Below, one piece after another: positions 8,961-13,469 of a stretch of 64,000 bases of DNA. Made by a program: the position numbers and the translations under genes. This DNA is from Methylibium petroleiphilum PM1 (GTDB lineage Bacteria > Pseudomonadota > Gammaproteobacteria > Burkholderiales > Burkholderiaceae_C), in assembly GCF_000015725.1 (NCBI RefSeq), contig NC_008825.1:3224001-3288000 (forward strand), in the 5' to 3' direction. A model generated the notes under the pieces. It worked only from the letters and a program-made list of their open reading frames with translations. It was not told the DNA's origin and made no database searches. Every line of letters starts with the position of its first letter. Within the stretch, counting starts at the first letter, position 1.

Positions 8961-9106
8961 GGCAAAGCTCCTGGGCACACGTCGTCCGCTCGAGGACGCT
9001 CGGCCCAGGATAGCCCGCAGGCCCCGGCCTGTGCGGGACGCAGGGCATCACCGCAGCCGGCCGCTGCGGCGCTGCACAGTCCCGGTGAGCGTATGGAGCC
9101 GCTCGC

Positions 9107-9112
9107 TACACT
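9107..9112 (+). promoter_or_regulatory. Candidate -10 box for leaderless rsuA transcript
   Basis: TACACT ends 5 nt before the rsuA ATG. No ribosome binding site is visible, so transcription may begin at or next to the start codon. Confidence 0.4.
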
Positions 9113-9117
9113 GCCGG

Positions 9118-9819
9118 ATGCGCATCTCGCAGGTGTTGTTCTCCCAGGGTTTCGGCACCCGGCGCGACTGCGCCGGGCTCATCCACGCAGGCGCCGTCGA
9201 GGTGGCCGGGCGCGTGGTCGACGACCCCGACGAGGAGCTGCCGACCGAGGACCTGGTGTTCAGCGTGCAGGGCCGGGCCTGGCCCTTCCACGACAAGGCG
9301 CTGGTGCTGCTGCACAAGCCCACCCACTACGAGTGCTCGCAGAAACCGCGCCACCATCCCGGCGTGCTCTCGCTGCTGCCGACGCCGCTGCGCGTGCGCG
9401 GTCTGCAGCCGGTCGGAAGGCTCGACGAAGACACCACCGGCGCGTTGCTGCTCACCGACGACGGCACGCTCATCCACCGGCTCACATCACCCAAGCACCA
9501 CGTGCCCAAGGTCTACGAGATCACGGCCAAGCATGCGCTGGCCGACGAGCAGATCGCCCGCCTGACCGAGGGCGTGGTGCTCGACGACGATCCCCAGCCG
9601 GTGCGCGCGGCCGCGGCCGAACGCACCGGCGAATTCACGCTGCGCCTCACGCTGACCGAAGGCAAGTACCACCAGGTCAAGCGCATGCTGGCGGCGGTAG
9701 GCAACCGCTGCGAGGCGCTGCACCGCAGCCGCATCGGCGCGCTGGCCCTGGACGACCTCCCGGTCGGCCAGTGGCGCTGGGTCGGCCCGGACGAGCGGGC
9801 CCGGCTGCTGCAGAAGTAG
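9118..9819 (+). CDS. rsuA: 16S rRNA pseudouridine synthase (RsuA type)
   Basis: The 233-residue protein has an N-terminal S4 RNA-binding domain (about residues 1-55) and a RsuA/RluB/E/F catalytic domain. The catalytic aspartate lies in VGRLDEDTTGALLLTDDG, followed by HRLTSPKHHVPKVYE and EGKYHQVKRMLAAVGN, which agree with RsuA more than with RluB or RluF. RsuA makes pseudouridine 516 in the 530 loop of 16S rRNA. ATG 9118 fits the S4 domain start; longer in-frame extension upstream is arginine-rich and unlike the family. Convergent with the response regulator gene. Confidence 0.88.
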   Translation: MRISQVLFSQGFGTRRDCAGLIHAGAVEVAGRVVDDPDEELPTEDLVFSVQGRAWPFHDKALVLLHKPTHYECSQKPRHHPGVLSLLPTPLRVRGLQPVGRLDEDTTGALLLTDDGTLIHRLTSPKHHVPKVYEITAKHALADEQIARLTEGVVLDDDPQPVRAAAAERTGEFTLRLTLTEGKYHQVKRMLAAVGNRCEALHRSRIGALALDDLPVGQWRWVGPDERARLLQK

Positions 9820-9848: not shown

Positions 9849-10478
9849 TCAAGCCTGGATCAGTCCCCAGCGCAGCGCCACCAGCGTGATCTCGCTCTGG
9901 TTGCTGGCGTTGAGCTTCTGCTTGATGTGGTACAGGTGCGTGCCGACGGTGCTGGGCGAGAGCTTCAGCGTCTCGGCGATCTGCGCCACCGTCATGCCGC
10001 GCGCGAGCTGGATGAAGACCGAGAACTCGCGCTCGCTCAGCATGTCGGCCGGGCTGGTCTCGCCGTCGATCTGTGCCACCGCCAGGCGCTGCGCGGTCTG
10101 GGCGTCCACGTAGCGCTCGCCACGCGCGACGGCCGTCACGGCAGCGATCAACGCCTCGGGCGCGCTGCGCTTGGCCAAGTAGCCCAGCGCGCCGGCGCGC
10201 AGCACGCGCTGCGGATGTGCGGTGTCCTCGTGGGCCGACAGCACCAGCAGCTTGAGCTTCGGGTCCTGGGCCAGCAGCCGCCGCACCGCTTCCAGCCCGC
10301 CCATGCCGGGCATCGACAGGTCCATCACCACCACGTCGGGTCGCGCCTTGGGCACCGCCAGACAGGCTTCCTCGCCGGTCTCGGCCTCGGCCACCACCTC
10401 GATGTCGGCATTGGCCAGCAGCATGCGAAAGCCCATGCGCACCAGCGCATGGTCGTCGACCAGCATCACGCGGATCAT
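9849..10478 (-). CDS. NarL/UhpA-family response regulator with LuxR-type HTH
   Basis: The start at 10478 gives a 209-residue regulator. The receiver domain (about residues 1-120) has acidic pocket residues in LVDDHALVR, the phosphoacceptor D53 in VVMDLSMPG, and the switch residues LVLSAHE and YLAKRSAPE. The C-terminal LuxR-type helix-turn-helix shows LSEREFSVFIQLARGMTVAQ and LSPSTVGTHLYHIKQKL. The cognate kinase gene lies upstream with a 184-nt gap, on the same strand. Such pairs control respiratory, sugar phosphate and, in some proteobacteria, PQQ-linked alcohol oxidation genes. The target here is unknown; pqqA, divergent from the kinase, is a candidate by position only. Confidence 0.92.
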   Translation of the reverse strand: MIRVMLVDDHALVRMGFRMLLANADIEVVAEAETGEEACLAVPKARPDVVVMDLSMPGMGGLEAVRRLLAQDPKLKLLVLSAHEDTAHPQRVLRAGALGYLAKRSAPEALIAAVTAVARGERYVDAQTAQRLAVAQIDGETSPADMLSEREFSVFIQLARGMTVAQIAETLKLSPSTVGTHLYHIKQKLNASNQSEITLVALRWGLIQA

Positions 10479-10662: not shown

Positions 10663-12042
10663 TCACGCCGGCTCCGCCGCGGTGAACGGCAACCACACCC
10701 GCAGGGCGACACCGCGCGGGCTGCGGTTGTCGATGCGCAGCACACCGCCCAGCGCCTCCACGCGCTCGGCCAGCCAGCGCAGGCCGTAGTGGCCGCCGTC
10801 CTGCCGCGCCTTCTCGCGCCAGTCGGGCGCAAGGCCCTGGCCGTCGTCGTCGACCTGCAGCTCGGCGCCTTCGGACTCGGCATGCAGGCTGACGCTCAGC
10901 TGCCTGGCCTGGCCGTGGCGCAGCGCGTTGGTCAACCCCTCCTGGGCCGCACGGTACAGCGCCAGCGTCGCTTCGCTGCCCAGCTGCACGTCGCCCAGGT
11001 CGATGTGCAGTTCGACGCTGGCCTGCGGCTGGCTGACCCGGGTGCGCTCGACCAGGTCGCGCAGCGCATCGGCCAGCCCGAAGACGTCGAGCACCAGCGG
11101 CGCCAGCCGCGGGATCAGGCCGTGCATCGCATCGTAGAGGCGCGAGCTTTCGTCGGCGATCACCTGCGCGGCGCGCGCGGCCTCGGGGTCGGCGATGGCG
11201 ACACGCTGCGCCACCGACAGCGCCAGGCTGCGCATGCCGGTCACCGACTGGCCCAGTTCGTCGTGCAGCTCACGAGCGATCAGGCGGCGTTCCTGCTCCA
11301 GGTGGCGGTCGATCCAGCGTGCCAGGTCGCGGCGGTCGGACAGCTCGTGCTCGGCCTGCGCGGCCCGGCGCTCGGCCTCGATGCGCTCGCTGACGCCCAC
11401 CACCATGCGGTTGAAGGCGGCGCCGATGGCAGCCGCCTCGGTGCCCGGCAGGCGCGGCAGCGTGACGTCGAGCTGCCCGGCCTCGATGCGGTTGAGCGCC
11501 GCGACGATCTGCCCGAACGGCTCGACCGTGCGGCCGACCACCCAGAACACCACCAGGTTGAGAACCGCCAACACGCCCAGCGCGGCCAACCCCAGCACCG
11601 CGAACTGGTCCCAGGCATCGAGCGCCGCGCGCGAGGGGTCGGCCCGCACCACCAGCGTGCCGTCGGGGAAATCCATCTTCTGCGGCTCCAGCGGCGGCGC
11701 CATGAAATCGACGAACCAGTCGGGCGCATCTCGGCCCGACTTGTAGGGCGACGGCGGCGACTGGTAGACCAGTTCGCCCTTGCCGTCGAGCAGCGTGATG
11801 TCGTTCGCCCGCACGCGGCCCACCCCCTGCAGGTAGCCGATCATCGCCGGCGTGCCGCGCGCCGCCTGCAGCCACAGCGTGCGCTGCAGCAACTGCGCGG
11901 CCACGCGGTTGGCGGCCTCGATCTCCTCCCGGATCGCGTCGCGCGCGCTCTTGACCTGCAGCGCCATGACGGCCACCAGGCACAGCGCCACCAGCACACC
12001 GACGATCAGGTGGATCTTCAAGCGCAGACTCATGCGCCGCAT
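10663..12042 (-). CDS. Membrane sensor histidine kinase (HisKA_3 type)
   Basis: About 459 residues. Two membrane segments (about residues 8-28 and 147-170) flank a periplasmic sensor region of roughly 115 residues that I cannot assign to a family. A HAMP-like linker (VVGRTVEPFGQIVAALNRIE) and coiled coil follow, then a HisKA_3 dimerisation domain with phospho-accepting His in LIARELHDELGQSVTGM. The HATPase domain has EGLTNALRHG (N box) and DDDGQG. Domain order matches NarX/UhpB-type kinases paired with NarL-type regulators such as the downstream gene. Start could be ATG 12042 or ATG 12033; neither has a strong ribosome site. It is divergent from pqqA. Confidence 0.9.
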   Translation of the reverse strand: MRRMSLRLKIHLIVGVLVALCLVAVMALQVKSARDAIREEIEAANRVAAQLLQRTLWLQAARGTPAMIGYLQGVGRVRANDITLLDGKGELVYQSPPSPYKSGRDAPDWFVDFMAPPLEPQKMDFPDGTLVVRADPSRAALDAWDQFAVLGLAALGVLAVLNLVVFWVVGRTVEPFGQIVAALNRIEAGQLDVTLPRLPGTEAAAIGAAFNRMVVGVSERIEAERRAAQAEHELSDRRDLARWIDRHLEQERRLIARELHDELGQSVTGMRSLALSVAQRVAIADPEAARAAQVIADESSRLYDAMHGLIPRLAPLVLDVFGLADALRDLVERTRVSQPQASVELHIDLGDVQLGSEATLALYRAAQEGLTNALRHGQARQLSVSLHAESEGAELQVDDDGQGLAPDWREKARQDGGHYGLRWLAERVEALGGVLRIDNRSPRGVALRVWLPFTAAEPA

Positions 12043-12085
12043 GGTATCGGCCGGCCACCCGCCGGCGCGGCGCCGATTCCAGAAA

Positions 12086-12160
12086 ATCATGAGGCGCGAA
12101 TCATGGCCGGGACCCTGCCCGACGGCCGCTCACGTGGGCATCATGAGCCATGAGTTGACG
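12086..12160 (+). promoter_or_regulatory. pqqA/kinase divergent control region with ATCATG repeats
   Basis: ATCATG occurs three times (12086, 12100 and 12140). CATGAG occurs at 12088, 12142 and 12149. TTGACG at 12155-12160 matches a -35 hexamer in 5 of 6 bases, but no good -10 follows at 16-18 nt, as often seen at activator-dependent promoters. The repeats are candidate binding sites for the neighbouring response regulator. This is inference from position. Confidence 0.35.
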
Positions 12161-12223
12161 GGAAACCGTTCACTCCGCAGCCGCCAAACCGGCCCTGTGC
12201 CACCCGAGTGAAGGAGATTCGAC

Positions 12224-12298
12224 ATGCAATGGCAAAAGCCCCAAGCGACCGACCTGCGTTACGGCTTCGAGATCACGATGTACATCTCGAACCGTTGA
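12224..12298 (+). CDS. pqqA: Coenzyme PQQ precursor peptide PqqA, orphan
   Basis: This 24-codon gene encodes a peptide with the PqqA pattern: KP near the start, DLR at 10-12, then GFEITMYISNR to the end. Glu16 and Tyr20, three residues apart, occupy exactly the positions of the Glu and Tyr that PqqE cross-links to form pyrroloquinoline quinone. The length equals that of known PqqA peptides. An AAGGAG ribosome binding site lies 7 nt before the ATG, and a strong terminator follows after 41 nt, so it is a single-gene transcript. None of pqqB, C, D or E is in the window. The divergent sensor kinase and regulator may control it. It is too short for most automatic gene callers and may be unannotated. 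Confidence 0.9.
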   Translation: MQWQKPQATDLRYGFEITMYISNR

Positions 12299-12339: not shown

Positions 12340-12365
12340 AAGGCCCGCCTCGAGCGGGCCTTTTT
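12340..12365 (+). terminator. Rho-independent terminator after pqqA
   Basis: AAGGCCCGC (12340-12348), a 5-nt loop CTCGA, and GCGGGCCTT form a 9-bp stem running into a T run ending at 12365. A weaker GC-rich dyad (12311-12332) precedes it. It separates pqqA from ribF. Confidence 0.85.
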
Positions 12366-12419: not shown

Positions 12420-13469
12420 ATGCAAGTGTTCCGAGGTCTGCACCACATCCTGCTGGCCGATGGCGGCGCGTCGGCCGTCACGGTCGGCAACTTCGATGGC
12501 GTGCACCGCGGCCACCAGGCGATGCTGGCGCTGCTCAAGAGCGAGGCCGAGCACCGCGACCTGCTCAGCACCGTGCTGACCTTCGAGCCCCATCCGCGCG
12601 ACTTCTTCGCCGCGCGTGCCGGCACCCCGGCCAAGGCGCCGGCGCGCATCGCCACGCTGCGCGACAAGCTCGGCGAACTGGCGCGCTGCGGCGTGCAGCG
12701 CGTCGTCGTGCTGCGCTTCGACCAGACCTTCGCCGACCAGTCGCCGCAGGCCTTCATCGACGACGTGCTGCTGCGCGGCGTGAAGGCGCGCTACGTGCTG
12801 GTGGGCGACGACTTCTGCTTCGGCGCGAAGCGGGCCGGCGACTACGCGATGCTCGACGCCGCCGGCGAACGCCAGGGCTTCGACGTGGCGCGGATGATGA
12901 GCTACGAGGTGCACGGCCTGCGCGTCAGCAGCTCGGCGGTGCGCGAGGCGCTGGGCGCCGGCGACATGGCGCTGGTCACCCGCCTGCTGGGGCGGCCCTA
13001 CAGCATCAGCGGCCACGTCACCCACGGCCGCAAGCTGGGCCGCGAGCTCGGCGCCGGCCCGGACGGCGGCGACGGCTTCCGCACGCTGAACCTGCGTTTC
13101 CCCCACCCCAAGCCGGCCGCGCACGGCATCTACGTCGTGCGCACCCACGGCCTGACCGCCGAGCCGCTCGACGGTGTGGCCAGCTTGGGGGCCCGCCCCA
13201 CGGTGGACGACAGCGGCCGGGTGCTCCTCGAAGTGCACTGCCTGGACTGGCCTGCGCACCTGGGCGCCGAGGGGGGCTACGGTAAACTCGTCCGCGTGGA
13301 ACTGCTGCACAAGCTACGCGACGAAGCCCGCTACGACGGGCTCGCTGCGCTGACCGCCGCGATCGCGCAGGACGTGAGCCAGGCGCGCCAGTGGCTGACG
13401 AGCAGCCCGCACGCGGCCCATGCGGCCGAGCGCCGCCAGACCACCCGCGATCGAATTCAGGGCCGCTGA
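12420..13469 (+). CDS. ribF: Bifunctional riboflavin kinase/FAD synthetase
   Basis: RibF phosphorylates riboflavin to FMN and adenylates FMN to FAD. The N-terminal nucleotidyltransferase domain (about residues 1-185) has [15 protein letters not shown] and [12 protein letters not shown]. The C-terminal flavokinase domain begins at [10 protein letters not shown] and includes GIYVV and [10 protein letters not shown]. Oddity: after GRKLG (203-207) about eight Gly/Asp/Pro-rich residues (212-219) are inserted before the FRTLN segment that replaces the usual FPTAN loop; Thr222 and Asn224 are kept. The 349-residue length is slightly above normal, with a polar tail. It starts the conserved ribF-ileS-lspA cluster. 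Confidence 0.95.

Follow-up and report, generated by a model that had tools for sequence, protein, structure and literature searches.

The locus raises the question of how a pqqA gene standing on its own comes to serve PQQ biosynthesis, and what its surroundings have to do with it. In the window, the whole 64-kb stretch of Methylibium petroleiphilum PM1 DNA that was analysed, a 24-codon frame at 12224-12298 on the plus strand encodes the peptide MQWQKPQATDLRYGFEITMYISNR, in which E16 and Y20 form the E-x3-Y arrangement of the pair joined into PQQ. The peptide scored 33.6 bits against NCBIfam TIGR02107 (cut-off 20), which identifies it as PqqA, and 30.5 bits against Pfam PF08042 (cut-off 21.1, E 3.3e-6), so that the original prediction of a PqqA pattern with Glu16 and Tyr20 is upheld by both models and both residues. 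The PF08042 match was the only one in the 4.64-Mb genome; the proposed check for further copies thus leaves the window gene as the single pqqA, with no second one detected by that search. At the codon level the gene is identical in DNA to that of the nearest genome, separated by one synonymous change from the next and by few changes from the others. Within 12257-12286, the Methylibium and Rivibacter peptides carry RYGFEITMY, and most relatives have RFGFEITMY. Heading a pqq operon, a usual trait of pqqA and not a defining one, is absent here.

The signals around the frame are those of a single-gene unit. An AAGGAG ribosome-binding site, read directly from the sequence, lies at 12212-12217 (+), and folding placed an intrinsic terminator on the same strand at about 12342-12365, consisting of the hairpin GGCCCGC-CTCGA-GCGGGCC followed by TTTTT; both features had been proposed earlier and are confirmed. 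A comparable terminator follows all seven pqqA genes found at the ribF locus described below, the window copy included. A consensus scan for a terminator and a sigma-70 promoter at pqqA gave no match, and the terminator was therefore taken from folding and the promoter elements from conservation. What did not survive of the earlier description is the bare orphan, because the gene is accompanied by a two-component system divergent from it and by a conserved operator.

The enzymes of the pathway are encoded elsewhere. No pqqB, pqqC, pqqD or pqqE was found within the 64-kb window, as had been noted, although the claimed range of 64 kb on either side was too loose, the window extending only about 12 kb upstream of pqqA. 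The proposed genome search recovered all four: PqqE (500 bits) and PqqC (310 bits) at C1 2.7605-2.7626 Mb, with PqqB (399.6 bits) and PqqD (105 bits) adjoining them, each above its equivalog cut-off. With pqqA at C1 3.2362 Mb, the distance is about 470 kb. No pqqA was found in front of pqqB in the PM1 genome, and alignment with a related genome that carries pqqA at this position showed no convincing remnant. Demand for PQQ is likely because eight PQQ alcohol dehydrogenases encoded in the genome exceed the cut-off of TIGR03075.

Divergent from pqqA on the minus strand lies a gene for a sensor histidine kinase with HAMP, HisKA_3 and HATPase_c domains (10663-12033), whose start is probably at 12033 rather than at the end of the longest frame, 12090. 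Its partner is a LuxR/NarL-type response regulator at 9849-10478 (-; longest frame to 10628), with receiver (98.7 bits) and GerE (57.3 bits) domains above cut-off. The regulator was also considered as ErdR, and this was rejected on a score of 69.5 against the 390 bits of NF041830. The sensor part of the kinase scored 24.4 bits against the LapD/MoxY family PF16448, just under the cut-off of 25, and two of five homologues matched it at E 0.001, a weak resemblance. The association of this pair with pqqA extends well beyond PM1. Among 80 loci from beta- and gammaproteobacteria that encode the kinase, the regulator adjoins it in 79 and pqqA in 75, where pqqA usually heads pqqABCDE; in most, the regulator gene is followed by that of the kinase, at some loci by one for an alpha/beta hydrolase, and then by divergent pqqABCDE. 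Three of the five kinase loci lacking pqqA are cut off on that side, and the other two (L107 and L109) have the pair with full flanks and no pqqA nearby.

In Methylibium, Rivibacter and Aquariibacter the pqq genes beside the pair are reduced to pqqA, and ribF comes next. The regulator pair and pqqA form a module inserted between a pseudouridine synthase gene (9100-9819, +, start approximate) on the left and ribF (12420-13469, +) on the right, both flanks lying outside it. In Piscinibacter, Roseateles, Azohydromonas, Ideonella and Aquincola this site is empty, with the pseudouridine synthase gene some 20-120 bases from ribF. The remote pqqA of PM1 and of five further genomes (G061, G173, G109, G082 and G186) occupies this one site, with the kinase-regulator pair on one side and ribF-ileS on the other. 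In a quick tree the kinase-regulator proteins of the ribF site formed one clade (SH-aLRT 99), which favours a single relocation.

Across a sample of 201 genomes drawn from the family, PqqC exceeded its cut-off in 48, and by a count from the tables pqqA adjoins PqqC in most of these. Remote pqqA was seen in PM1, G061, G082, G186 and G142, with a few other genomes showing contig ends or no pqqA, and both an operonic and a remote copy were present in G173 and G109. Two genomes (G079 and G184) have a strong PqqC and no PqqA match, their pqqA being missed, diverged or absent. A separate kind of split occurs in G142, where pqqA shares one contig (L049:458-8106) with a more distant kinase-regulator pair and with genes for prolyl-aminopeptidase-like, PqqE-like and PqqD-like proteins, and pqqBC lie on another contig (L050). 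In two Aquariibacter-type genomes (L052:6731-10342 and L053:6770-10403), two extra pqqA genes lie on either side of a gene with a GGDEF domain and have an HDOD-like gene next to them, and the operator described below is strong at one copy and weak at the other.

The enzyme genes have a different affinity from the module. PqqB of PM1 shares about 53% identity with its counterparts in regulated operons, against up to 71% with those in unregulated operons outside its own group. The PqqB tree united the six genomes of the ribF site in a clade (100/98) inside a set of regulator-less operons (100/100). Since this PqqB belongs to another operon lineage, the pathway looks chimeric, and these comparisons make it most likely that precursor and regulator derive from one ancestral pqq operon and the enzymes from another. 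The two kinds of operon do occur together, as G198 holds one regulated and two unregulated pqq operons. One history would start from an ancestor with a regulated and an unregulated operon, of which the first would persist as the regulator pair and pqqA at ribF, and the second as pqqBCDE, its own pqqA having been lost in the PM1 lineage. Alternatively, the pair and pqqA could have entered by horizontal transfer an ancestor with an unregulated pqqABCDE, the operonic pqqA being lost later in some lineages. Rivibacter and one Methylibium genome, which possess an operonic pqqA as well as the module, the single clade of module regulators and the ease with which extra operator-bearing pqqA copies arise are all in keeping with such a transfer. 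However, the present trees do not separate it from vertical descent, loss from a two-operon ancestor and module transfer fitting them equally, and vertical descent needs no transfer because many members of the family have regulated operons. We therefore regard the transfer as a tentative alternative, with chances short of even, and retain descent from a two-operon ancestor as our reading.

Upstream of pqqA lies a 33-bp operator of three TCATGA boxes (AtTCATGAAAATCATGAGGCgcGAtTCATGaT), found in front of pqqA in 75 of 76 loci, with a score of 20 bits at the remaining one. In the window it occupies 12076-12108 (+), its first box being degenerate, and scored 49.1 bits with a matrix built without PM1 and its closest kin; random sequence of window length reached at most 1.5 bits in six trials. 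The start of the longest kinase frame, which would add 12034-12090, falls within this operator. At fixed distances past it, 60 betaproteobacterial loci share a CTG block and an A..AT block, consistent with -35 and -10 elements, and these correspond in the window to a putative -35 element CTGCCC (12115-12120, +) and a putative -10 element CATCAT (12139-12144, +).

The PM1 genome contains one such operator site, at pqqA. A candidate at pqqB was rejected, as AAAATCATGA is present there, yet the stretch scores below 10 bits, and no site above 5 bits was found at the PQQ alcohol dehydrogenase loci that were fetched. The earlier idea that the supply of the PQQ precursor is set apart from that of the enzymes fits an operator that is present at pqqA and lacking at pqqB. 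In 15 related genomes the good operator matches were at pqqA, one weaker match stood before an additional pqqE of G173, and the remaining matches with three mismatches included one more pqqA. The operator was absent from the detached pqqBCDE clusters and from the operonic pqqA of G173 and G109, and the extra remote pqqA copies of G173, G082 and G186 carry it, some of them weakly. In G173, Methylibium sp. MGR_bin318, an extra pqqE and then an extra pqqA (L047:7696-9454) each lie behind a weaker operator of their own. Operator and regulator pair also go together in the survey: among 31 pqqA loci, 16 have the operator; at 15 of them the kinase-regulator pair lies no more than about 7 kb away, and the sixteenth is an extra pqqA copy with the pair elsewhere in the same genome. 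None of the 15 operator-less loci has the pair in the wider stretches, some of whose contigs end within a few kb. From this co-occurrence we infer that the regulator binds the operator.

Could the pair be a mere neighbour with other main targets, and pqqA constitutive? The two loci with the pair and no pqqA nearby would suit such an arrangement, as would the fact that binding of the regulator at pqqA is deduced from co-occurrence. It is nevertheless improbable, given the operator at pqqA in all genomes tested, with the extra pqqE as the sole other good match, and the strict co-occurrence of operator and pair. Slightly less probable still is a simple break of a regulated pqqABCDE between pqqA and pqqB with the regulator-pqqA part moving to ribF, which would account for the arrangement of the pair and pqqA as at regulated operons and for the empty ribF site in relatives, but is contradicted by the lack of a pqqA remnant at pqqB and by PqqB of the six genomes, which groups with regulator-less operons, its constraint to regulated operons being rejected (p-AU 4.6e-7, for a grouping chosen after the tree had been viewed).

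Taking pqqA as the regulated target, the membrane histidine kinase would sense a cue tied to PQQ-dependent oxidation, such as an alcohol, a metal or the redox state. The nature of this signal is a guess, because the sensor-domain match falls under the cut-off and extends to only two of five homologues. The kinase would phosphorylate the LuxR-type regulator, which would then bind the three TCATGA boxes, situated immediately before a weak -35 element, and activate pqqA. The distant, operator-less cluster would supply PqqD/PqqE, PqqB and PqqC, which would modify the PqqA peptide in trans. To the account as a whole, that is, a sole pqqA within a regulator module and activated by its regulator, remote enzymes acting in trans and a history of two operons, we assign a probability of roughly 0.78. 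With more reserve, though still on the favourable side of even, we propose that a two-component system conserved in beta- and gammaproteobacteria is dedicated to the control of PQQ supply and acts through a single operator at each pqqA, that the Methylibium group retained only the module of regulator and precursor and combined it with enzymes from another pqq operon, and that supply of the precursor is the controlled step.

Pseudomonas and a few methylotrophs apart, little is known about how PQQ supply is matched to demand. In PM1 a single operator in the genome marks the precursor gene, which makes the idea of PqqA supply as the control point simple to probe genetically. The case indicates that different operons can contribute the ribosomally synthesized precursor of a cofactor and the enzymes that modify it, with the regulator staying with the precursor. 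The operator pattern also offers a convenient way to find regulated pqqA genes, whose small size makes them easy to overlook.

Detached pqqA genes have precedents. In Methylosinus trichosporium OB3b, pqqA is likewise apart from pqqBCDE, and its transcript is reported to be as abundant as that of mxaFI and far above those of the other pqq genes; OB3b is, however, an alphaproteobacterium, and the passages drawn on here mention neither a two-component system linked to the gene nor an operator or a mixed ancestry of the operon (PMC3615186). Methylophilaceae also keep pqqA away from the other pqq genes, with 3-12 copies dispersed from a single set of the latter and, in one genome, pqqDE with an extra pqqA; they differ in copy number from PM1, which has one, and their regulation is not described (PMC4109929). 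As for regulators, systems of the MxaY/MoxY type and PedS2/PedR2 govern PQQ-dependent alcohol oxidation via dehydrogenase genes, the Paracoccus mxaXYZ genes being divergent from their target operon (PMC5018670, PMC6115532). The PM1 pair resembles them in its membrane kinase, and PedS2/PedR2 in its LuxR-type regulator, and is unlike them in having a single genomic operator, at pqqA, and a sensor-domain match below cut-off. Control of the Pseudomonas pqq operon by AgmR and related regulators is similar in that a dedicated regulator is thought to act on pqq genes (PMC12997753); there, however, the pqqABCDE genes lie together, and the PM1 regulator scores far below the ErdR model. No literature report of a kinase-regulator pair at pqqA, or of its operator, was found in a search of incomplete coverage, which is weak evidence, and none of a mixed pqq operon ancestry. 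A detached pqqA is by itself ordinary, and the parts that appear new are the proposed dedicated regulator with its single target and the mixed ancestry of the operon.
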